Source: Promicromonospora sukumoe 327MFSha3.1
GTDB taxonomy: Bacteria; Actinomycetota; Actinomycetes; Actinomycetales; Cellulomonadaceae
NCBI RefSeq assembly: GCF_000385135.1
Contig: NZ_ARQM01000018.1
Location: 124,001-188,000, forward strand
DNA: 64,000 nucleotides
Direction of reading: 5' to 3'
Of the stretch, positions 2 to 19,087 are shown piece after piece. The notes under the pieces were generated by a model. That model searched no databases, was not told the DNA's origin, and worked only from the letters and a program-made list of their open reading frames with translations. How positions within the stretch are numbered: the stretch's first letter is position 1; the number at the start of each line of letters is the position of its first letter. The translations under genes were made by a program, and so were the position numbers.

Positions 2-706
2 TACGCCATCGACCGTAGCGCCATCGTGAACGCGAGCGGCGGCACGCAGCTCGGCGCCCAGTCCACGACGATCATCCCGCCGGCGGTCGCCGGTCACAAG
101 GACTTCGACCTGTACCCGTCGGAGGGCGGCACGGGCGACGTCGAGGCCGCGAAGAAGCTGCTCGACGAGGCCGGCCTGTCCGACGGGTTCACCCTGACCC
201 TCGACATCCGCTCGCAGGAGTCGATGCAGGCCCAGGCCGAGTCGGTCCAGCAGTCGCTCGAGCGCATCGGCATCACCGTCGAGCTCAACCTGATCGACAC
301 CTCCACGTACTACGAGACCATCGGCACCCCGTCGCAGCAGCACGACGCCGCCATCACCGGCTGGTGCCCGGACTGGGCCTCGTCGGCGGCCACCTTCATC
401 CCGCCGCTGTTCGACGGCCGCAACATCTACGAGAAGGGCAACAACAACCTCGCCCAGCTGAACGACGACGACGTCAACGCCCGGATCGACGAGATCGGGG
501 CCATGACCGACATCGCCGCGGCGAACGAGCAGTGGGGCGCCCTCGACGAGGAGATCCTCGAGCTGGCGCCGATCGTCCCGCTGATGGTCGCCAAGACGGT
601 GCTGCTGCCGGGTGAGAACGTCACCGGGCTGTACTCCTCGGCGAACGCCGCGAGCGGCGGCATCGACTACGTCGGTGTCGGCCTCAAGGACCCAGAGAAG
701 GGCTGA
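2..706 (+). CDS. ABC transporter peptide-binding protein, family 5 (3' part)
   Basis: The 5' end lies outside the window; the frame is open from base 2. The visible 234 residues are the C-terminal lobe of an SBP_bac_5 (DppA/OppA) binding protein. It starts with the YAIDR segment typical of this family and ends with the usual aromatic-rich lobe. This extracytoplasmic lipoprotein would capture a peptide or nickel/peptide-like ligand and hand it to the permeases that follow 3 bp after the stop. The conserved DppBCDF gene order makes the assignment strong; the actual ligand cannot be read from the sequence. Confidence 0.9.
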   Translation, partial: YAIDRSAIVNASGGTQLGAQSTTIIPPAVAGHKDFDLYPSEGGTGDVEAAKKLLDEAGLSDGFTLTLDIRSQESMQAQAESVQQSLERIGITVELNLIDTSTYYETIGTPSQQHDAAITGWCPDWASSAATFIPPLFDGRNIYEKGNNNLAQLNDDDVNARIDEIGAMTDIAAANEQWGALDEEILELAPIVPLMVAKTVLLPGENVTGLYSSANAASGGIDYVGVGLKDPEKG

Positions 707-709
707 TCC

Positions 710-1699
710 ATGACGTCCACCCCGACTGACCTCACGGCCGCCCAGGCCGTGGCAGCCGGGTCCGGCGACACCCCCGAGGCGCCGGCGGCACCAGCCGCCG
801 GCGCCCTCCGGGCGGGTGCCGGCGGTACCTGGCAGGCCCTGCGCCGCGACGTCGGCGCGATGCTCGGCCTCGGCTACATCGTGCTCGTCACGCTCGTCGC
901 GATCTTCGCGCCCGTCCTGACCGCCATCAGCGGCTGGACCCCGTACGAGTTCGACCAGACCGCGATCGACCCCAACCTCGGCGGCATGCCGATCGGCCCG
1001 TGGGGCGGCGTCAGCGCCGAGCACTGGTTCGGCGTCGAACCGGGCAGCGGCCGCGACATCTTCGCGCGCATCGTCTACGGCGCGCGGGTCTCCATGAGCA
1101 TCGCGCTGTCCGCCACCGCGCTGACCACCGTGCTGGGCGTCTCGCTCGGGCTCGTGGCCGGCTACTTCGGCGGCCGCGTCGACCTCGTGATCTCGCGAGT
1201 CATGGACTTCCTCATGGCGTTCCCCGCGCTCATCTTCATGATCGCGGTGCTCTCGGCGCTGCCCGCGGGCAACCGGTCCACGCTGCTGGTGGTCGTGATC
1301 TCCGTGTTCGGCTGGCCCTACCTGGCGCGCATCGTGCGCGGGCAGACCATGTCGCTCGCGCAGCGGGAGTTCGTCGAGGCCGCCCGGGCTGCCGGGGCGA
1401 GCGGCACGCGCATCGTGTTCCGCGAGATCCTGCCCAACCTGCGCTCCACGATCATCGTGATGGCCACCCTCGCCGTGCCCGGCTACGTCGGCACCGAGGC
1501 CGGCCTGTCCTTCCTCGGCGTCGGCGTCGTACCGCCCGAGCCGAGCTGGGGCCAGATGATCGCCGCGTCCGTGAAGTGGTACGCCGTCGACCCCGCGTAC
1601 TTCGTCTTCCCCGGCGTCTTCCTGTTCCTGCTCGTGCTCTCGTTCACCGTGCTCGGCGACCGACTGCGCGCCGTCGTCGACGCCCAGGAGGGCCGCTGA
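710..1699 (+). CDS. ABC transporter permease, DppC/OppC type
   Basis: 329 residues. An Ala/Pro-rich cytoplasmic N-terminus is followed by a first membrane segment near residue 50. The BPD_transp_1 core has the EAA loop near residues 220-240 (FVEAARAAGASGTRIVFREI), which docks on the ATPases. It forms one half of the membrane channel of the peptide importer. The start ATG is 3 bp after the binding-protein stop and the stop overlaps the next ATG, so translation is coupled. DppC usually follows DppB; here the order is C then B, a minor rearrangement. Confidence 0.92.
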   Translation: MTSTPTDLTAAQAVAAGSGDTPEAPAAPAAGALRAGAGGTWQALRRDVGAMLGLGYIVLVTLVAIFAPVLTAISGWTPYEFDQTAIDPNLGGMPIGPWGGVSAEHWFGVEPGSGRDIFARIVYGARVSMSIALSATALTTVLGVSLGLVAGYFGGRVDLVISRVMDFLMAFPALIFMIAVLSALPAGNRSTLLVVVISVFGWPYLARIVRGQTMSLAQREFVEAARAAGASGTRIVFREILPNLRSTIIVMATLAVPGYVGTEAGLSFLGVGVVPPEPSWGQMIAASVKWYAVDPAYFVFPGVFLFLLVLSFTVLGDRLRAVVDAQEGR

Positions 1700-2691
1700 T
1701 GCCCCGGTTCCTGATCACCCGAGTCGCCTCCGGCCTCGGCGTGCTGCTGCTGGTCTGCCTGTTCACGTACCTGGTCTTCTTCGCGCTGTCGCCGGACCCG
1801 GCGGTGCAGATCTGCGGCAAGAACTGCACGCCGGAGGTCATCGACCAGATCCGCGGCAACCTCGGGCTGGACCAGCCGTTCTGGACGCAGTTCTTCCACT
1901 TCGTCGTCGGCATCTTCGCGGGTCGCACGTACGGCGAGGGGGTCGGCGCCGTCGAGTGCGCGGCGCCCTGCCTCGGCTACTCCTTCCAGTCCAGCCAGGC
2001 CGTCTGGGACATGATCATCCAGCGCCTGCCGGTCTCCGCGACGATCGCGGTGGGCGCCGCCGTGCTGTGGCTGCTCGCCGGTCTCGCCGGCGGCCTGCTC
2101 AGCGCCGTCAAGGAGGGTACGTTCCTCGACCGGTTCACCACCGGCCTGACGCTGACCAGCATGTCCATCCCCAACTACGTGCTGGCGCTCGTGCTCCAGT
2201 ACGTGCTGGTGGTCAAGCTGCAGTGGCTGCCGTTCCCGCAGGCCGTCGCGTTCGCCGACGACCCCGGGCAGTGGTTCGCGAACTTCGTCATGCCGTGGAT
2301 CGTGCTCGCCGTCGGCTACGCGGCCGCCTACACGAGGCTGACCCGGGCCAACGTGCTCGACGTGCTGCGCGAGAACTACGTGCGCACCGCCTACGCGAAA
2401 GGCCTGGCCCAGCCGCTGGTCTGGCGCCGGCACGCCCTGCGGCCGGCCCTGACGCCGATCGTGACGATCTTCGGGATGGACTTCGCCGGCCTGCTCGGCG
2501 GCGCCCTGATCACCGAGACCGTGTTCGGCATCAACGGCGTGGGCAAGATGGCCGCCGACTCCATCGCCCGCAACGACCAGCCGGTGATCATGGGCGTCAC
2601 CCTGCTGGCCGGGTTCCTCGTCGTCGTCGGCAACATCGTGGTCGACGTCGTCTACACCGCCATCGACCCGAGAGTGCGGGTGAACGCATGA
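1699..2691 (+). CDS. ABC transporter permease, DppB/OppB type
   Basis: 330 residues beginning MPRFLITRVASG, the standard DppB N-terminal membrane helix, followed by a periplasmic-type loop with two cysteine pairs (ICGKNC and CAAPC). Five further membrane segments and the EAA loop near residue 225 (VRTAYAKGLAQPLVWRRHAL) follow. It pairs with the preceding permease. The ATGA overlap at both ends (1699 and 2688) places it inside a translationally coupled operon. The extracytoplasmic cysteines are somewhat unusual and may form disulfides. Confidence 0.92.
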   Translation: MPRFLITRVASGLGVLLLVCLFTYLVFFALSPDPAVQICGKNCTPEVIDQIRGNLGLDQPFWTQFFHFVVGIFAGRTYGEGVGAVECAAPCLGYSFQSSQAVWDMIIQRLPVSATIAVGAAVLWLLAGLAGGLLSAVKEGTFLDRFTTGLTLTSMSIPNYVLALVLQYVLVVKLQWLPFPQAVAFADDPGQWFANFVMPWIVLAVGYAAAYTRLTRANVLDVLRENYVRTAYAKGLAQPLVWRRHALRPALTPIVTIFGMDFAGLLGGALITETVFGINGVGKMAADSIARNDQPVIMGVTLLAGFLVVVGNIVVDVVYTAIDPRVRVNA

Positions 2692-3557
2692 CGCTCCTGC
2701 AGGTACGCGACCTCACCGTCACCTTCCCCACCCCGCGCGGTCCGCTCGACGCCGTCCGCTCGCTCGACCTCGACCTGGAGCCCGGCGGCGCGCTGGGCAT
2801 CGTGGGCGAGTCCGGCTCCGGCAAGTCCATGACCAGCCTGGCGATCATGGGCCTGCAGCCGCGGGCCGCGCAGCGCACCGGCAGTGTGCGCCTGCGCGAC
2901 CAGGAGCTGGTCGGGCTGTCCGAGGCCGAGCTGCGCCGTGTGCGCGGCGACCGCATCGCGATGGTCTTCCAGGACCCGCTGTCCTCGCTGAACCCGTACT
3001 ACACGGTCGGGCTCCAGATCGAGGAGGCGTACCGCGCCCACCGGCCCGGCACCACGCGCCGCGTGGCCCGCCGGGTCGCGATCGAGGCGCTGGAGCGGGT
3101 GCACATCCGCGACGCCGCGCGGCGCGTGGACCACTACCCGCACCAGTTCTCCGGCGGCATGCGCCAGCGCGTCATGATCGCCATGGCCCTGAGCACCGAG
3201 CCCGAGCTGCTCATCGCCGACGAGCCCACCACGGCGCTCGACGTCACCGTGCAGGCGCAGATCCTCGACCTGCTGCAGGAGATCCGGCGCGAGACCGGCA
3301 CCGGCCTGGTGCTGATCACGCACGACCTGGCCGTGGTCAGCGAGGTCACCGACCACATCGTCGTCATGAAGGACGGCGTGTGCGTCGAGCGCGGGCCCGT
3401 CGAGCAGATCTTCACCGACCCACGGCACGCGTACACCCAGGCGCTGCTCGACGCGGTGCCGCGCATCGACGACGAGATCGGCGCGCTGCGCGCGGTCACG
3501 GCCGGCGGCGCCGGCGACGCCGCGGCGAACGACAAGAAGGACGGAGGCCCCGCATGA
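2688..3557 (+). CDS. ABC transporter ATPase, DppD/OppD type
   Basis: 289 residues with Walker A GESGSGKS at 40-47, Q-loop FQDP, ABC signature FSGGMRQR near 154 and Walker [13 protein letters not shown]. The C-terminal oligopeptide-transporter extension that normally carries an Fe-S cysteine cluster is short here. It powers peptide import together with the next ATPase. The start ATG overlaps the permease stop. No regulatory site precedes it, so it is expressed from the upstream promoter. Confidence 0.93.
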
Positions 3558-4405
3558 GCACGCCGCTCCTGAGAGCCACGAACCTCGTCAAGGAGTTCCC
3601 GGTGCTGGGCACCGGCGGCCTGCTGCGCCGTCCGGACACGTTCCGGGCCGTGGACGACGTGAGCTTCGAGATCAACGCGGGCGACACCCTCGCCCTGGTC
3701 GGTGAGTCGGGCTCCGGCAAGTCGACGACGGCGCGCCTGGCCGCTCGCCTGCTCGACGTCACCTCGGGCACCGTCGAGCTCGACGGCGAGGACGTCACCG
3801 GGCTCGGCCGCGCCGACCTGCGCCGGTTCCGCAGCGAGGTCCAGGTGGTCTTCCAGGACCCCTACTCCTCGCTCAACCCGCGGCACACCGTCGAGCGCAT
3901 CGTCACCGCGCCCCTGCTCTACCAGCAGCGGAGCATCCCGGGCGGCGCCCGCGCGTTCACCCGGTCGCTCATGGAGCGGGTCGGGCTGGACCCGGACCAC
4001 TCGCAGAAGTACCCGGCGCAGTTCTCCGGCGGCCAGGCGCAGCGCATCGGCATCGCCCGCGCGCTCGCCGTCGGGCCGCGCGTGGTGGTGTGCGACGAGG
4101 CCGTCTCCGCCCTGGACGTCTCCGTCCAGGCCCAGGTGATCAACCTGCTGCGCGAGCTGCAGCGCGAGGAGGGCCTGACGTACCTGTTCATCGCGCACGA
4201 CCTGGCCGTGGTGCGGCAGATCGCCACGCGCGTCGCGGTGATGACGCAGGGCCGGATCGTCGAGGAGGGCGACCGGGACGCCGTCTTCGACGCGCCACAG
4301 CACGAGTACACGCGCAAGCTGCTCGACGCCGTGCCCCGCATCCGCCCCGAGTGGGAGCGGGAACGACGGCGCAACGCGGCCCTCGCGGCGGGAGCTTCGG
4401 CATGA
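3554..4405 (+). CDS. ABC transporter ATPase, DppF/OppF type
   Basis: 283 residues. Walker [10 protein letters not shown] starts at residue 50, the signature is [15 protein letters not shown] and Walker B is [12 protein letters not shown]. It is the second nucleotide-binding subunit of the importer. It begins with 4-bp overlap with the preceding ATPase and ends with 4-bp overlap with a proline-specific peptidase. Transport and peptide hydrolysis are therefore on one transcript. Confidence 0.93.
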
Positions 4406-5694
4406 GCGCGGGCTGGACCACCTACCTGCTGCCGGGCATCGGCGTCCGCGAGCGCCGCCTGGCGGTGCCGCTGGACCGGTCGGGCCGGCTGGCGGGCGAG
4501 GTGACGCTGCTGGTCCGCGAGCTGGTGGACCCGACGCGCGCCGACGAGGACCTGCCGCTGCTGGTGTACCTGCAGGGCGGGCCGGGCGGGGCCAACCCGC
4601 GGCCGCTGCGGCGGGACGGCTGGCTGGACGTGGCGCTGCGTGACCACCGCGTGGTGTTCGTGGACCAGCGCGGCACGGGCGGCAGCTCGCCGCTGGACGG
4701 GGAGGCGCTGGCGGGGCTGGGCGCGCGCGAGGGCGCCGACCTGCTGGCGTGCTACCGGGCCGACTCGATCGTCGCGGACCTGGAGGACGTGCGCCGTCAG
4801 GTGTACGGCGGGCGGCCGTGGACGACGCTGGCGCAGAGCTTCGGCGGGTGGATCACGCTGACGTACCTGTCGTTCGCGCCCGAGGCGCTGCGCGCCTGCT
4901 ACGTGGCGGGCGGCATCCCGGGCACGCCGCCGGACGCCGCGGAGGTCTACCGCCGCACGTTCGGCCGGGTGGCGAGCAAGACGGCGGCGTTCTACCGGCG
5001 TTACCCGGCCGACGTCGACGCGGTGGCGGCGATCGCGGACCGGCTGGCCGAGGGCGACGTCCTGCTGCCGGACGGCGACGTGCTGACGGTGCACCGGTTC
5101 CAGTCCATGGGCATCGACCTGGGCATGAAGCCGGGGCCGGAGCGCCTGCACTGGTTCGTCGAGAAGGCGTTCGCGGCGCCGGGCCGGCTGTCGACGGGGT
5201 TCCTGCAGGAGGCGATGGTCCGCACCGCGCAGGCGGACGGGCCGCTGTTCTGGACGCTGCAGGAGTCGATCTACGGGCACGGCGGAAACGGCCCCACGGG
5301 CTGGGCGGCGCAGGCCGAGCGGGACCGGCGCCCGGAGTTCGACGCGGACCGCCGTCCGCTGCTGTTCACGGGCGAGATGGCGTTCCCGTGGATGTTCGAC
5401 GAGATCCGGCTGCTGCGGCCCTTCGCCGGGGCGGTGCACGAGCTGGCGGCGCGCGAGCAGTGGTCGCCGCTGTACGACCTGGACCGCCTGGCCGCCAACG
5501 AGGTGCCCCTGGCGGCGATCGTCTACCACGACGACATGTTCGTGGACTCCGGCCTGCAGCTCGACACGCTCTCGCGGGTCGGGTCGGCGCAGGCCTGGGT
5601 CACCAACGAGTACGAGCACGACGGGATCGGTGACGCACGCGTGCTGGAGCGCCTGCGCGAGCTGGTCCGCGACCGAGGAGGAGAGATTCGATGA
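4402..5694 (+). CDS. Prolyl aminopeptidase (proline iminopeptidase), S33 alpha/beta hydrolase
   Basis: 430 residues, no signal peptide, so cytoplasmic. Family marks are the oxyanion segment [12 protein letters not shown], the [12 protein letters not shown] strand and the nucleophile elbow AQSFGGW, all typical of S33 prolyl aminopeptidases. A late His is in YEHDGIGD. It removes N-terminal Pro (possibly Hyp) from peptides delivered by the ABC importer. It overlaps the OppF-type gene by 4 bp and the Xaa-Pro aminopeptidase by 4 bp. Longer than the roughly 310-residue classical Pip; it matches the larger actinobacterial/lactobacillar PepI-like subgroup. Confidence 0.85.
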
Positions 5695-7133
5695 GCACGC
5701 ACCACACCCCTGGCCGGCCCCCGTACGCCGGCACCCGCGCGCCCCGGCTGGCCGAGAGCGACGCGTTCAACGCCCACATGGCCCGCGGCTGGGGCGCGCC
5801 GGACGTCGTCGTCCCGGTGATCCCCGGCGCGCCGGAGGCCGCAGCCGACCACCGCCGCCGCCTGTCCGAGCGCATCGGCGCGCGCGACGCCGTGGTCGGC
5901 GCCGGGCGCGCGCCGCTGCGCAACGGCGACGCGATGTACGGGTTCCGCGCCGACAGCGACTTCGTGTGGCTCACGGGCGTGCAGGCCGAGGACGGCGTCC
6001 TGGTGCTGCGGGCGGCCGACGGCGGGCACGACGCGACGCTGTACCTGCCGCCGCCCGCCAAGCCGGGCGAGAGCGCGTTCTTCGGCAACGCGGCCTACGG
6101 CGAGCTCTGGGTGGGGCCCTCCCCCGACCTGGCCGCGTGGGCCGAGGCGTTCGGCATCGCGGTCGAGCCGCGGGCCGCGCTGGACGGCGTGCTGGAGAAG
6201 CTGGACGGCGCGCTCGCCTCGCCGTCGGTCGACGAGGACCTGGTGCGCCGGTTCGGCCTCAAACCGTCCGAGGACCTGGTCCGTGCGCTGTCCGACCTGC
6301 GGATGATCAAGGACGACTGGGAGATCGGCCAGCTCCGCGAGGCGATCGACCACACCGTGACCGGGTTCGACGCCGTGGCCCGCGAGGTGCCGCGCGCCGT
6401 CGGCGGGCTCGGCGAGCGCTGGCTGCAGGGCACGTTCGACCGGCACGCGCGCACGTTCGGCAACGGGCCGGGCTACTCGACGATCGTCGGCTCCGGACCG
6501 CACGCCCCGACCCTGCACTGGGTGCGGTGCGACGGCCCGATCCTGCCCGACATGCCGCTGCTGCTCGACATGGGCGTCGAGGCCAACTCCCTGTACACGG
6601 CCGACGTGACCCGCACCATCCCGCCGTCGGGCACCTTCAGCCCGATCCAGCGGCAGGTGCACGACCTGGTGGAGAAGTCGCACCGCGCCGGCATGGCACA
6701 GATCCGGCCCGGCGTGGAATACCTGGACTTCCACTTCGCGGCCATGGAGGTCATCGCCCAGGGGCTGCACGACTGGGGGCTGCTCGACGTCTCCGTCGAC
6801 GAGGCGCTCTCCCCCGGCGGGCAGCAGCACCGGCGCTGGCTGGTCTGCGGTATCGGCCACCACCTGGGGCTGGACGTGCACGACTGCGCCCACTCCGACT
6901 ACCAGGCGTACCAGGCCGCGCCCCTGGCCCCCGGCGTCGTGATGACGGTCGAGCCCGGCCTGTACTTCCACGCCCACGACGAGACCGTGCCGCCCGAGCT
7001 GCGCGGCATCGGCGTGCGTCTGGAGGACGACCTGCTGGTCACCGCCGACGGCGCCGAGGTGCTCTCGGACGCGCTGCCCATCGACGCCGCCGGTATCGAG
7101 CGCTGGACCGCGGAGCGGATCGGCGATGCCTGA
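5691..7133 (+). CDS. pepP: Xaa-Pro aminopeptidase (aminopeptidase P, M24B)
   Basis: 480 residues with the N-terminal AMP_N domain followed by the pita-bread fold. The dinuclear-metal ligands are visible: Asp in LLLDMGVEANSLYTADVTRT (two Asp), His in GIGHHLGLDVHD, Glu in VEPGLY and Glu in VRLEDD. It removes any N-terminal residue that precedes proline, complementing the prolyl aminopeptidase just upstream. The RBS GAGGAGGAGA is 6 bp before the ATG. No export signal is seen. The 3' end overlaps the GH127 gene by 8 bp. Confidence 0.9.
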   Translation: MSTHHTPGRPPYAGTRAPRLAESDAFNAHMARGWGAPDVVVPVIPGAPEAAADHRRRLSERIGARDAVVGAGRAPLRNGDAMYGFRADSDFVWLTGVQAEDGVLVLRAADGGHDATLYLPPPAKPGESAFFGNAAYGELWVGPSPDLAAWAEAFGIAVEPRAALDGVLEKLDGALASPSVDEDLVRRFGLKPSEDLVRALSDLRMIKDDWEIGQLREAIDHTVTGFDAVAREVPRAVGGLGERWLQGTFDRHARTFGNGPGYSTIVGSGPHAPTLHWVRCDGPILPDMPLLLDMGVEANSLYTADVTRTIPPSGTFSPIQRQVHDLVEKSHRAGMAQIRPGVEYLDFHFAAMEVIAQGLHDWGLLDVSVDEALSPGGQQHRRWLVCGIGHHLGLDVHDCAHSDYQAYQAAPLAPGVVMTVEPGLYFHAHDETVPPELRGIGVRLEDDLLVTADGAEVLSDALPIDAAGIERWTAERIGDA

Positions 7134-9849
7134 GGCCCTGCTCTCCTCGCCGGGCGTGGGGACCCGGGTGGCCGAGCCGTTCCCGCTGGCCGACGTCGAG
7201 GTCACGGGCGGCGTCTTCACGCGCGCCCGCGACCAGATGCTGCACCTGGCCCGCGTCTACCCCGTCGACCGGCTGCTCGCCGTCTTCCGCGCGAACGCCG
7301 GGCTGGACACGCGCGGCGCGCTGCCGCCGGGCGGCTGGGAGGACTTCGGCCACCCCGACGAGGACGCCTGGGGCCCGGACGACTACCCCGGCCGCGAGGC
7401 CGCGCCCACCGCCAACCTGCTGCGCGGCCACTACGCGGGACACTTCCTGTCCATGCTGGCGCTCGCGGCCGGCGGCCCGGGCGACGCCGCGGAGCGGGCC
7501 GAGCTCAAGGCCAAGGTCGACGACATGGTCGAGGGGCTGCGGGAGGTCCAGGAGACGCTGGCCGCGACCGGCCGGTACAGCCACCCCGGGTTCCTGGCCG
7601 CCTACGGCGAGTGGCAGTTCTCCCGCCTGGAGGGCCTGGCGCCCTACGGCGAGATCTGGGCGCCGTACTACACGTGCCACAAGATCATGGCCGGGCTGCT
7701 GGACGCCCACCGCCACACGGGCTCGGCCGTGGCGCTGGAGGTCGCCGCCGGGATGGGCCGGTGGGTGCACGGGCGGCTGTCCGCGCTGCCCGCGGAGCAG
7801 CGCGCGGCCATGTGGGCCCTGTACATCGCAGGCGAGGCCGGCGGCATGAACGAGGTGCTGTGCGACCTCACCGTGCTCACCGGGGACCGCACGTTCGTCG
7901 AGACGGCGCGCCTGTTCGACCTCGACACCCTGCTGGAGTTCGCGGCGGCGGGCCGCGACGAGCTGGACGGCATGCACGCCAACCAGCACGCCGCGACGCT
8001 GCTCGGCTACCTCGCCCTGGGCGACCTGACCGGCGAGGCGCGGTACACGGACGCCGTCGTCCACCTGTGGGACATGCTCGTGCCCGGGCGCACCTACGCG
8101 CACGGGGGCTCCGGCGAGAACGAGCTGTGGGGGCCGGCGGGCGCCGTCGCGGGCGACATCGGCAACCGGAACGCCGAGACGTGCGTGACCTACAACATGC
8201 TCAAGATCGCCCGCGCCCTGTTCGAGCGCACGGGCGAGGCCCGGTTCGCGGACTACTACGAGCGGGCCGTGACCAACCAGATCCTGGGCTCGCGGCGCGA
8301 CGCCGACTCGGACGACTCGCCCGAGGTGACGTACATGTTCCCCGTGCACCCGGGAGCGCTGCGCGAGTGGGACAACGTGGGCACGTGCTGCGGTGGGACG
8401 GGGCTGGAGAACCACGTCAAGTACCAGGACTCGGTGTACTTCCGGTCGTTCGCCGGTGCCGCGCGCGTCGTCTGGGTCAACCTCTACGTGGCCTCGACGG
8501 CCGTGTGGGCGGAGCAGGACGTCCGGCTGGTGCAGCGCACGGACTACCCGCTGGAGGGCAGCAGCCGGATCGAGGTCGACGCGACCGGCGACCTGGAGCT
8601 GCGCCTGCGGGTGCCGGCCTGGGTCGCGGGCGGCGCCTTCACCGTGACGGTGGACGGGGAGGTTCAGTCCGTCCGGGCCGACGGCGGGTACGTCGCCCTG
8701 CGGCGCGACTGGCGCCCCGGCACCGTCGTCGAGATCGACATGCCGCTCACCCTGCGCGAGGTCCCGGCCCCCGACGACACGTCGGTGGTCACCCTGGAGC
8801 TCGGACCGACGGTGCTGCTGGCCCGCAGCGCCGCCACGACCTGGCTGCCCCTGGAGGCCGCGACCTGGCGGCGGCTCGGCGGCACGCTGGCGGCCCCGCT
8901 GACCTCCGCCGACGACGGCACGTGGCGCCTCGGCGACCTCGTCCTGGAGCCCACGTGGTCCGGGTCCGACGCCAGGTACCACATGTACCTGCGCCGGTCC
9001 GACGCGCGGATCGCGTTCGCGGGGACCGGCCCCGCGGCGGACTCGGGCGTGCCGAACGCGGCGCGCGCGGACGGTCGCACGTTCCTCGACGTGCTGTGGT
9101 CGGACGGCGGGTTCGCCGACCGTTCCGCGTTCGTCGAGGCCGTGCTGCGCACGACGCACGAGTTCGTGGACCTCGGCCTGCTCAGCGCCGCGGAGGGGCG
9201 CGGGGTGCTGGTGGCGGCGGCGCGCTCCGGCGTCGGGCGGCCGCCCGAGGCCGACGGCGGGCCCGGGTCCGACGTCCGGGCCGCGGAGGAGGCCGCGCTC
9301 CTGTCGCGGGCGCCGACCACCACGCACGAGGGCTCCGCTCCGCGCGTCGAGATCGTCGCGGCCGACGCGCCCGGCGTCAGCGGCTGGTACCTCCGGCCGG
9401 CGGAGCTCACCGTCACCGCACGGGCCGACGTCGGCGAGCCGGTCGTCGAGGTCCGCGTCGACGACGGGCCGTGGACGCCCGCCGGGCGGGAACCGCTGGT
9501 GCTGTCCGACGGCGTGCACACGGTCACCGCGCGCGCCGTCGACGTGGCGGGGCGGGAGCGGCGCGTCGTCCGCGAGGTCAGCGTGGACACCCGGCCGCCG
9601 CGGACCAAGGTGACGACCAAGCGCCTGGGCCCGCGGGGAGTCGAGATCAACCTCGCCGCCGCCGACGACGTCTCGGGCGTGGACAGCATCCGGTGGAAGG
9701 GGCCGGACACGTTCTGGGCCACGTTCGCCGAGCCGTTCAGCCGGGCGCTGTCCGACGTGCCCCAGGTGATCGAGTACGCGGCGACCGACCGGGCGGGCAA
9801 CCAGGAGCCCGTGCGCACCCTGGTGCTCCCGCCCGCCGAAGCCGACTAA
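7126..9849 (+). CDS. GH127 (DUF1680) beta-L-arabinofuranosidase, apparently intracellular
   Basis: 907 residues. The GH127 catalytic region spans roughly residues 15-650. It carries the zinc/nucleophile residues of the family: Glu351 and Cys353 in NAETCVTYNMLK, and Cys421-Cys422 in GTCCGGTG. In the family these bind Zn and supply a cysteine nucleophile. Two Ig/FN3-like beta domains follow (about 740-905). The characterised bifidobacterial member releases arabinose from beta-L-arabinofuranosides linked to hydroxyproline. No signal peptide precedes the catalytic domain, so the substrate must be imported. It overlaps pepP by 8 bp and closes the peptide-uptake operon; a long palindrome begins 2 bp after its stop. 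Confidence 0.87.
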   Translation: MPEALLSSPGVGTRVAEPFPLADVEVTGGVFTRARDQMLHLARVYPVDRLLAVFRANAGLDTRGALPPGGWEDFGHPDEDAWGPDDYPGREAAPTANLLRGHYAGHFLSMLALAAGGPGDAAERAELKAKVDDMVEGLREVQETLAATGRYSHPGFLAAYGEWQFSRLEGLAPYGEIWAPYYTCHKIMAGLLDAHRHTGSAVALEVAAGMGRWVHGRLSALPAEQRAAMWALYIAGEAGGMNEVLCDLTVLTGDRTFVETARLFDLDTLLEFAAAGRDELDGMHANQHAATLLGYLALGDLTGEARYTDAVVHLWDMLVPGRTYAHGGSGENELWGPAGAVAGDIGNRNAETCVTYNMLKIARALFERTGEARFADYYERAVTNQILGSRRDADSDDSPEVTYMFPVHPGALREWDNVGTCCGGTGLENHVKYQDSVYFRSFAGAARVVWVNLYVASTAVWAEQDVRLVQRTDYPLEGSSRIEVDATGDLELRLRVPAWVAGGAFTVTVDGEVQSVRADGGYVALRRDWRPGTVVEIDMPLTLREVPAPDDTSVVTLELGPTVLLARSAATTWLPLEAATWRRLGGTLAAPLTSADDGTWRLGDLVLEPTWSGSDARYHMYLRRSDARIAFAGTGPAADSGVPNAARADGRTFLDVLWSDGGFADRSAFVEAVLRTTHEFVDLGLLSAAEGRGVLVAAARSGVGRPPEADGGPGSDVRAAEEAALLSRAPTTTHEGSAPRVEIVAADAPGVSGWYLRPAELTVTARADVGEPVVEVRVDDGPWTPAGREPLVLSDGVHTVTARAVDVAGRERRVVREVSVDTRPPRTKVTTKRLGPRGVEINLAAADDVSGVDSIRWKGPDTFWATFAEPFSRALSDVPQVIEYAATDRAGNQEPVRTLVLPPAEAD

Positions 9850-9851
9850 CC

Positions 9852-9895
9852 GTGTCAGGCGTATAGGTCACCCGGGTGACCTGTACGTCTGACAG
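9852..9895. terminator. Palindrome family A, copy 1 (probable terminator)
   Basis: A 44-nt inverted repeat with 22-nt arms and three mismatches. It starts 2 bp after the GH127 stop and has no T-run. The right arm has the same sequence as family-A copies 2 and 3 (core CTGTACGTCTGACA). It is probably the intrinsic terminator of the importer/peptidase/GH127 operon. Confidence 0.7.
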
Positions 9896-9991: not shown

Positions 9992-11200
9992 ATGAACCAG
10001 CGAGCCGTCCGGAAGTCCCTGGCTCTACCGCTCGCGGCGATCGCCGCGAGCGCCCTTGCCCTCGGCGCCGTGCCCGCGGGCGCGGCGGCCGCCCCGCCGT
10101 CCTCCGCGGTCGCCGCCCCGGCGTCCGACGCCTGCCGCCTGCCCGCCGCCGTCGGCGGCCTCGGCTCGGGGTTCCCGGTCGACGACCAGGCGCTCCCCGC
10201 CGTCGGCGACCTCAAGGCGGCGCTGCTGCTCGTGGACTTCGACGACCACCCGGCTTCCGCCGCCTCCGCGGACGAGGCGGAGGCCAACCTCGCGTCGGGC
10301 GTGGAGTACCTGGAGCGGGTCTCGGGCGGCCGGCTGGACGTGACCACGACGACGTCGGACGGCTGGGTGCGGATGCCGGAGCCGTCGACGTCGTACCCGT
10401 TCGAGCGGGGCCTGAGCTACGAGGACCACGTGCGGTACATCGGCGACGCGATCGCGGCCGCCGACGACACGTTCGACTTCTCCGACGTGGACGTCGTGTG
10501 GGTGACGGCCACCAGGGAGGCGCCGAACATCACGTACTCGCCCACGACGAACTTCCTGGACGTCACGGCCGACGGCAACCACCTGACGCACGCCGTGACG
10601 TTCGGCTACGACCAGTGGCGCTGGGGCGGGCTGGTCCTGGCCCACGAGTCGGGGCACACGCTGGGCCTGCCCGACCTCTACCTGTTCGAGGCGCCGCCGG
10701 AGGACCCGGGCAACTACCACGCCGCGGTCGGCGGCTGGGACCTGATGGGCCTGATCTCGGGCGCCGGCCCGGAGTACTTCGCCTGGCACCGCTGGCAGCT
10801 CGGCTGGCTCGACGACGCCCAGGTGGTGTGCGCGGGCGACGACCGGACGACGTCGGCGCGGCTGGCGCCGGTGGCTCGTTCGGGTGAGGCGCTCCCGGGG
10901 CAGGCCGCCATGGTGGTCTACCCGGTGTCGGAGACGCGCGCCGTCGTCGTCGAGAACCGGCAGCCGGTGGGCTACGACGAGGGCATCGAGGCGCGCGGCG
11001 CCCTGGTGTACACGGTGGACACGTCCGTGCCGTCGGGCGAGGGCCCGGTCCGGGTGGTCGACTCGACGCCGGGTTCGGCGGACGGCCTGGACGACGCCCC
11101 GTTCGCGGCGGGCTCGTCCTGGACCGAGCCGACGACGGGTGCCGAGCTCACGTTCCGGGCCGGCCCGGCGGGCACGCTCAAGGTGACGGTCCAGCCCTGA
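9992..11200 (+). CDS. Secreted M6-like zinc metalloprotease
   Basis: 402 residues. A Sec signal peptide covers about residues 1-36 (basic MNQRAVRK, hydrophobic core, AGA-AAA cleavage region). The mature part is an M6/immune-inhibitor-A-like catalytic domain with the zinc motif HESGH at 218-222 followed by GLPDLY. A C-terminal beta domain lacks obvious membrane anchoring. It should act outside the cell on proteins. The start is chosen at ATG 9992 with GGAGAG 7 bp upstream. It is separated from the GH127 operon by palindrome A1 and followed by palindrome A2, so it is a single-gene unit. Confidence 0.85.
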   Translation: MNQRAVRKSLALPLAAIAASALALGAVPAGAAAAPPSSAVAAPASDACRLPAAVGGLGSGFPVDDQALPAVGDLKAALLLVDFDDHPASAASADEAEANLASGVEYLERVSGGRLDVTTTTSDGWVRMPEPSTSYPFERGLSYEDHVRYIGDAIAAADDTFDFSDVDVVWVTATREAPNITYSPTTNFLDVTADGNHLTHAVTFGYDQWRWGGLVLAHESGHTLGLPDLYLFEAPPEDPGNYHAAVGGWDLMGLISGAGPEYFAWHRWQLGWLDDAQVVCAGDDRTTSARLAPVARSGEALPGQAAMVVYPVSETRAVVVENRQPVGYDEGIEARGALVYTVDTSVPSGEGPVRVVDSTPGSADGLDDAPFAAGSSWTEPTTGAELTFRAGPAGTLKVTVQP

Positions 11201-11209
11201 CCACCTCCC

Positions 11210-11253
11210 GTGTCAGACGTACAGGTCACCCGGGTGACCTGTACGTCTGACAC
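11210..11253. terminator. Palindrome family A, copy 2 (perfect 22-bp arms)
   Basis: A perfect 44-nt palindrome whose left arm begins GTGTCAGACGTACAGGTCAC. It lies 9 bp after the metalloprotease stop and has no T-tract. It is the least altered copy of family A in the window and probably terminates the protease transcript. Confidence 0.72.
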
Positions 11254-19043: not shown

Positions 19044-19087
19044 GTGTCAGACGTACAGGACCCCCGAGGGATCTGTACGTCTGACAC
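19044..19087. terminator. Palindrome family A, copy 3
   Basis: Arms share GTGTCAGACGTACAG with the perfect copy 2; the loop region differs. It lies 17 bp after the dehydratase stop and ends 26 bp before the GntR start. It probably attenuates transcription between the two genes. Confidence 0.68.

Follow-up and report, generated by a model that had tools for sequence, protein, structure and literature searches.

In Bifidobacterium longum, the beta-L-arabinofuranosides linked to hydroxyproline (Hyp) in hydroxyproline-rich glycoproteins are targeted by the HypAA/HypBA2/HypBA1 system with its sugar importer (BLLJ_0208-0213), and passages of PMC7263609 describe there an intracellular clan GH-P beta-L-arabinofuranosidase (GH, glycoside hydrolase) together with an ABC importer. 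The disaccharide is cut off outside the cell and is taken up by a beta-Ara2 sugar importer (PMC7263609, same passages). Here, an operon with comparable elements is described from the actinobacterium Promicromonospora sukumoe 327MFSha3.1. It lies at the beginning of a stretch of 64,000 nucleotides (contig NZ_ARQM01000018.1, G000:C18:124001-188000), which as a whole is called the window. In contrast to the B. longum system, its importer is of the peptide type (SBP_bac_5), peptidases are joined to it and Hyp catabolic genes are located nearby. The operon is quite probably part of a catabolic system for arabinosylated Hyp peptides derived from plant Hyp-rich glycoproteins, most likely extensins. 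The uptake and breakdown of such peptides had been proposed in a preliminary description of the window, and that proposal was supported by synteny, by the hydropathy of the glycosidases, by the kinship of the binding protein, by an adjoining Hyp operon, by an exchange between families GH146 and GH127, and by the presence of GH36 genes. Missing synteny, a secreted glycosidase and a binding protein of another preference had been named there as grounds for refutation, and in so far as sequences can tell, none of the three went against the proposal.

Other described systems share individual parts with this locus. Some GH146 enzymes, namely the bifidobacterial Bll4HypBA1 and the Xanthomonas XeHypBA1, act on the Araf-beta1-Hyp linkage (Araf, arabinofuranose), as stated in passages of PMC10850190; the glycosidase of the window is GH146-like by structure matches rather than by direct sequence comparison with these two. 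They differ in that those passages do not connect them with peptide import, with peptidases for proline or with the catabolism of Hyp. The bacterial trans-4-hydroxyproline (t4Hyp) pathway comprises a 4-hydroxyproline epimerase (4HypE), a cis-4-hydroxyproline (c4Hyp) oxidase, a DapA-type deaminase and an alpha-ketoglutarate semialdehyde (alpha-KGSA) dehydrogenase, and clustered genes of the same families adjoin the importer described here. Passages of PMC4113996 assign these enzyme families to the t4Hyp pathway, report that t4Hyp induces it in Streptomyces lividans, and mention 'several types of transport systems' near 4HypE genes as well as peptidases and ABC/TRAP transporters near the t3HypD cluster of Bacilli. 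The terms glycos* and oligopeptide are absent from the main text of that paper. An in-silico proposal on extensin degradation by Latescibacteria likewise includes a GH127 for Hyp-linked arabinose and oligopeptide importers; as presented in passages of PMC4454575, it differs in listing these functions one by one, with arabinose set free in monomeric form, and includes neither a joint operon nor Hyp catabolism. No paper describing the present operon was found in open-access PMC titles, abstract starts and passages, a search in which a mention in a full text was possibly missed.

Gene calls were taken from Pfam and NCBIfam scans, and gene junctions were read directly from the sequence. All genes of the operon are on the forward (+) strand. 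The first one codes for a substrate-binding lipoprotein (SBP, substrate-binding protein). Its start lies 1007 bases before window base 1, and the window edge falls inside the operon; the C-terminal part was identified by Pfam at 2..706, and the full gene spans L006:10994-12706, that is G000:C18:122994-124706 (L006 being G000:C18:112001-132000). It is followed by a DppC/OppC-type permease (PermC, 710..1699; PF00528 and PF12911), a DppB/OppB-type permease (PermB, 1699..2691; PF00528 and PF19300, scanned from 1732, with the start ATG at 1699) and two ATPases with PF00005 and PF08352, of the DppD/OppD type (AtpD, 2688..3557) and the DppF/OppF type (AtpF, 3554..4405). An S33-type alpha/beta hydrolase (4402..5694; PF00561 over cut-off), an M24B protein of the aminopeptidase P type (5691..7133; PF00557 and PF05195 over cut-off) and a clan GH-P glycosidase (7126..9849; PF07944 and PF20736) complete the run. 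The families thus confirmed that an importer, two peptidases and a glycosidase stand in one run, as had been described. Continuous stop/start overlaps had also been claimed. They are present from PermC onwards, with ATGA overlaps at 2688, 3554, 4402 and 5691, TGATG at 1699 and an 8-nt overlap at 7126, whereas the SBP and PermC genes are separated by 3 nt.

The importer set is complete for the Opp/Dpp type: one SBP_bac_5 protein, two BPD_transp_1 permeases and two ABC_tran ATPases with oligo_HPY domains, in agreement with the peptide importer first proposed. The N-terminus of the SBP carries a lipobox, LAAC, as read by eye. Its closest solved relative is 2wok, oligopeptide-binding protein 2 (E 1.5e-93), compared with about 5e-13 for NikA chains, a sequence kinship that speaks against a binding protein of the nickel type. 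The NCBIfam models nearest to PermC were those of oligopeptide and nickel permeases, none over cut-off. The top matches of AtpD were OppD/DppD models and those of AtpF were GsiA and DppF-like models, again below cut-offs; for the importer proteins in general, the listed Nik models and peptide equivalogs were alike below their cut-offs. A nickel importer was ruled out by the family scores together with the kinship of the SBP to 2wok.

Just upstream of the window, and divergent from the SBP gene, a Hyp operon was found at L006:10759-3332 (minus strand). It codes for a GntR-FCD regulator, a DAO-type oxidase, a flavoprotein with a BFD-like [2Fe-2S] domain, a DapA-family protein, a proline-racemase-family epimerase and an aldehyde dehydrogenase, the last assigned from its open reading frame and conserved place rather than from a family scan. 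The epimerase carries both active-site Cys motifs and is one of two proline-racemase-family matches in the genome. By its gene content, a complete predicted trans-4-hydroxyproline catabolic operon adjoins the importer; this neighbour, which cannot be seen from the window, is decisive for the interpretation. The six Promicromonospora compared (6/6) share an invariant block of 30 nt in the divergent intergenic region (L006:10760-10993). It is a candidate operator shared by both operons, and no convincing GntR palindrome was seen in the compared region.

In order to examine conservation without bias towards the glycosidase, the SBP was used as the anchor. Matches at E 1e-160 or better were accepted, and the samples comprised 246 genomes at class level, 396 at order level and 396 at phylum level. 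Apart from the own genome, 14 different ones were recovered, of which G374, G386, G448 and G632 also occur in the glycosidase-anchored set described below, the other ten being new. A beta-L-arabinofuranosidase-family gene was present in the gene run of 13 of the 14; in the remaining one (G323), the contig ends after AtpF. The M24 gene was found in the same 13 and S33 in nine, being absent in G244, G424, G387 and G361. Three or more Hyp genes were detected in 11 of the 14 (not in G130, G244 and G167), and the epimerase gene itself (HypEpi) in nine. In six operons (G130, G248, G167, G244, G640 and G440) a GH127 gene is located upstream of the SBP gene, with no GH146 in the stretch examined, and these GH127s are 51-61% identical to that of Promicromonospora soli. 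As judged from this arrangement, two families, GH127 and GH146, fill one slot in the operon. This is the strongest sign that selection keeps the removal of beta-L-arabinofuranose.

The same result bears on a simpler explanation, by which the importer would serve Hyp peptides without sugars, for example fragments of collagen or gelatin, and the glycosidase would be an unrelated passenger. The peptidases and the Hyp catabolism would suit collagen equally, and passages of PMC9147577 connect S33 prolyl aminopeptidases with collagen and other Hyp-rich peptides. A passenger, though, would hardly be retained in 13/14 SBP-anchored loci and be supplied by both GH127 and GH146. With the arabinofuranosidase slot kept and filled by two families, a system for collagen only is disfavoured and is considered very improbable.

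The search was repeated with the glycosidase as anchor. Among 12 other Promicromonospora genomes, the operon-type glycosidase was found in eight (>=80% identity, i.e. at least that value, in the best piece). All eight genes from importer to glycosidase are in order, with Hyp genes divergent, in five of these eight (G012, G011, G003, G007 and G006), the last Hyp genes of G012 and G006 being cut by the end of the stretch examined. P. soli (G005) is without S33, and its operon has a GH127 as first gene (L038:6079-6210, L062:885-2945); G010 is a gapped draft and G009 lies on a short contig. In G004, the importer arm was not in the stretch examined and a C-terminal glycosidase stub stands beside the Hyp genes (L147:9977-10341), which looks as if the importer arm was deleted.

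A wider search with an alignment (A1) of seven proteins was evaluated at 80 loci, the best 80 of 176. Loci with an S33 or M24 relative nearby were classed as operon-type (n=49), and the other 31 as non-operon. The order SBP-PermC-PermB-AtpD-AtpF-S33-M24-GH is intact on one strand in 40/49 operon-type loci, so the synteny extends beyond this strain. The 49 loci span ten actinobacterial families and the 40 ordered ones span eight. The nine non-intact loci comprise four that are contig-limited (L064, L075, L077 and L095), a gapped draft (L066), the P. soli locus without S33 (L062) and three that are rearranged or partial (L084, L100 and L125). HypEpi was found within the examined flank in 24/49 loci and at least one Hyp gene in 32/49. 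Promicromonospora has the Hyp cluster in divergent orientation, Glycomyces and Microbacterium have it downstream, and Kineosporia and (HypEpi seen) Streptomyces have it upstream. It is placed differently by lineage, and the linkage therefore outlives rearrangement. Since synteny holds within the genus, across families and from the SBP anchor, the gene arrangement as read from these genomes is not due to chance, and an accidental neighbourhood was ruled out.

The family of the window glycosidase was determined from its matches to solved structures. The best matches were 5opj (199 bits), which we take to be BT0349, and 8k7y/8k7x (184/183 bits), presumably Bll3HypBA1. On the GH127 side, 6ex6, 4qjy and 5mqo gave 67, 55 and 51 bits, and 3wkw was not listed at E 0.001. 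The P. soli GH127 displayed the reverse pattern, with 4qjy, 6ex6 and 3wkw as best matches and 355 bits for 4qjy against 28 for 5opj; this confirms, from the other side, the GH146 or GH127 membership of the solved chains. The GH127 C-terminal domain PF20737 was not reported for the window glycosidase in the Pfam scan, and was reported in the GH127 genes of P. soli, Pseudoclavibacter and Microbacterium (L075). By these scores, taken both ways, the enzyme is nearer to GH146 than to GH127. The GH127 label that it had first been given was consequently replaced by that of a GH146-like beta-L-arabinofuranosidase, as predicted from sequence. Residues E333, E351, C353, C421 and C422 are invariant in 82/82 aligned glycosidase sequences. 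E333 is presumably the acid/base residue, while E351, C353, C421 and C422 match the Zn site of GH146, a Glu-x-Cys plus Cys-Cys arrangement with a Cys nucleophile. The Zn residues of Bll3HypBA1 are given in a passage of PMC10850190.

No signal peptide was seen at the N-terminus of the window glycosidase, as stated in the preliminary description. In the 49 operon-type loci, the best 15-residue hydropathy near the start ranged from -0.37 to 1.43 (median 0.79), so that none of these homologous copies exceeded 1.43. The 31 non-operon relatives had a median of 1.75, with 29/31 at 1.49 or above (>=1.49), on a simple score rather than a trained predictor and with a dividing line chosen after the values were seen. 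Just two of them, L121 and L138, were below 1.45; L138 starts near the contig start, and L121 has a signal-like stretch missed by the start-codon rule. A crude pattern for twin-arginine translocation (Tat) was matched by 28/31 non-operon and also by 8/49 operon loci, in the latter apparently within the overlapping M24 region. In a tree of 80 rows (78/80 loci, the own copy and an own paralogue, with L094 and L138 left out as truncated), 50 operon copies were parted from 30 non-operon copies by one branch with an SH-aLRT of 100. The tree, made by a quick method (LG+G4), shows this split irrespective of the direction of change, and flags were raised for long branches (L129, L139 and L100), a doubtful join (L077-L129) and odd composition (L139, L108 and L122).

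The location of the enzyme bears on another explanation, in which the sugars are removed outside, bare Pro/Hyp peptides are imported, and the cytoplasmic glycosidase acts on arabino-oligosaccharides or Hyp-arabinoside entering separately. The genome does code for a secreted-looking GH146 paralogue with a visible Tat-type leader (L046:12488-14545, minus strand, C12), which is 58% identical, has no importer genes nearby and has its C-terminal homologous part about 1 kb further on. Further GH127-family genes are present as well. In addition, at L054:8427-13697, a GH127 gene with no leader to be seen adjoins what by eye reads as a sugar ABC importer and a divergent LacI-like regulator, an arrangement that resembles the bifidobacterial beta-Ara2 import route (passages of PMC7263609). 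Against this, the glycosidase stands in the same-strand run of the peptide importer in 13/14 SBP-anchored loci, no sugar importer gene was identified in that run, and eight operon GH127s and four GH36s read by eye showed no clear signal peptide. Removal of the sugars outside is thus regarded as unlikely. Under the preferred reading, import of the glycopeptides, the L054 enzyme could handle the outer beta1,2-Araf as beta-Ara2 and leave the Hyp-linked Araf to the operon GH146. Such a role for the GH146 is in line with Bll4HypBA1, reported as the last enzyme (a title cited in PMC10850190).

Additional glycosidase genes accompany some of the operons. According to Pfam, Pseudoclavibacter (L069) and Leucobacter (L077) have a GH36 gene that separates M24 from GH146, and by similarity a GH36 gene is divergent upstream in four Glycomyces and beside the operon in G167. 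In or near the operon GH36 was counted in 6/49 loci and an extra GH127 in 9/49 (L062, L069 and L075 checked with Pfam), both as raw counts. In extensin motifs, Ser bears alpha-galactose and Hyp bears beta-linked Araf (passages of PMC8012813), and the predicted GH36 alpha-galactosidase of some operons fits the Ser-galactose of extensin.

Arabinosylated plant peptide hormones (CLV3/CLE, PSY1) could alternatively be the main substrates, with the system removing host signals. Peptide hormones are within the size range of Opp importers. These peptides bear Hyp-arabinosides, CLV3 a single Hyp-Araf3 (passages of PMC8012813). The GH36 of some operons, however, suits the Ser-galactose of extensin and not hormones, and the linkage to Hyp catabolism indicates nutrition. 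Peptide hormones are also scarce. A primary role in hormone removal is therefore judged distinctly improbable. A broader version adds signal removal to nutrition: intact O-arabinosylated (and Ser-galactosylated) Hyp peptides would be imported and deglycosylated in the cytoplasm, which would also silence CLE/CLV3-type signals in the rhizosphere, because these hormones carry the same Hyp-Araf3 tag. This combined claim is tentative and rather unlikely as a whole.

Neither the S33 hydrolase nor the M24B protein displayed a visible signal peptide. The M24B protein had been described as an Xaa-Pro aminopeptidase, in good agreement with AMP_N and Peptidase_M24 domains over cut-off and with aminopeptidases P as best solved relatives (E 7.9e-45); it scored 180 against a cut-off of 465 for the NCBIfam equivalog PRK10879. 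The S33 protein is, by family, an S33-type alpha/beta hydrolase and a putative prolyl aminopeptidase, with Arabidopsis At3g61540 as best solved relative (E 4.8e-95). It was dropped as a hallmark of the system, as the five importer-distant S33 matches that were examined, of 48-57% identity (L144 and, in the own genome, L145, together with L146, L148 and L149) have no importer genes nearby. An S33 prolyl aminopeptidase of Serratia marcescens is reported to have extra space in its active site and high activity on acetylated Hyp (a title cited in PMC9147577). Because of that reported activity, an S33 enzyme might set Hyp free while it is still substituted, ahead of the glycosidase, a possible exchange of two steps in the route outlined below.

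From gene content, gene order, conservation, the missing recognisable signal peptide, catalytic residues and the Hyp linkage, all of them sequence-based, we infer the enzyme activities, the import of whole glycopeptides, the order of steps and the regulation. The SBP_bac_5 lipoprotein would capture peptides with short beta-L-arabinofuranosyl chains on Hyp, and the Opp/Dpp-type transporter would import these glycopeptides whole. Arabinose would be removed in the cytoplasm by the GH146-like enzyme, or by a GH127 in other lineages, sometimes with GH36 acting on Ser-Gal. Aminopeptidase P (M24B), plus S33 where present, would then trim the Pro/Hyp peptides to free amino acids, and trans-4-Hyp would be converted by epimerase, oxidase, DapA-type deaminase and aldehyde dehydrogenase to 2-oxoglutarate. 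These Hyp steps would be encoded by the divergent operon with its GntR/FCD regulator. Import of glycopeptides with cytoplasmic deglycosylation would be the reverse of the known strategy, in which the sugar is cut off outside.

Several observations weigh against this interpretation. The enzymes of the best solved relatives of the glycosidase (5opj and 8k7y/8k7x, with identities as assumed above) act on linkages of the arabinan and arabinogalactan-protein types (passages of PMC10850190), and the structure matches, judged by their names, did not include Bll4HypBA1, a GH146 specific for Hyp. The glycosidase has a C-terminal Ig/OmpL47-like region (residues about 760-900; Pfam/NCBIfam), usual in surface proteins and odd for a cytoplasmic enzyme. 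This region is common to operon copies and secreted relatives, and therefore it may predate the operon/non-operon split. The epimerase has the proline racemase 7pb3 as best solved relative, so its Hyp specificity rests on context, which speaks for Hyp (PMC4113996); the Cys-Cys type covers both ProR and HypE (passages of PMC4364671). Regarding the S33 protein, the earlier assignment as prolyl aminopeptidase held for the S33-type alpha/beta hydrolase family and not for the function model, since scores were far below the cut-offs of three NCBIfam prolyl aminopeptidase models (24.4 bits/259.75, 23.1/500 and 21.1/167.65). It is also the least constant part of the operon, absent in 4/14 SBP-anchored operons and in P. 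soli. No Hyp gene was found in the examined flank of 17/49 operon-type loci, many of them flank- or contig-limited. In the SBP-anchored set, the stretches examined for G130 and G244 contained no gene for an enzyme of Hyp catabolism, and that for G167 contained a DapA homologue as sole Hyp gene. Finally, the system is rare: the SBP at E 1e-160 or better was found in 13/396 genomes order-wide and 2/396 phylum-wide, the own genome included.

Downstream of the glycosidase gene, a palindrome with two 21-nt arms (90% complementary) and no T-run is located at 9853..9894. A long hairpin had been said to close the unit. The palindrome is real, but near-identical 42-nt copies recur at 11211-11252 and 19045-19086, so that such elements follow several genes, and seven half-site matches were counted in the window against 0.01 expected; it is therefore not operon-specific. 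An operon-specific terminator was ruled out in favour of a repeated intergenic element, a family of hairpins that perhaps serve as terminators without a T-run. The next gene codes for an M6-family metalloprotease (9992..11200, + strand; TIGR03296 over cut-off), an operon neighbour of uncertain membership in the system. It has a signal-like N-terminus, as read by eye, and is found downstream of the glycosidase in 5/8 other Promicromonospora loci. Outside the cell, this protease could be a source of peptides.

In the plant wall, extensins and other Hyp-rich glycoproteins form a tough fraction that contains nitrogen, and little was found on the bacterial use of their protein part, the described bifidobacterial route being one that salvages arabinose. 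The gene set reported here predicts a full path from glycopeptide to 2-oxoglutarate, carried by many soil and plant-associated actinobacteria, and offers a conserved test bed in organisms that are easily handled. Its importer is predicted to be tolerant of O-glycosylated peptides. In addition, the linkage to Hyp catabolism may serve as a functional tag for GH127, GH146 and GH36 enzymes not yet assigned, as well as for a subfamily of S33 peptidases.

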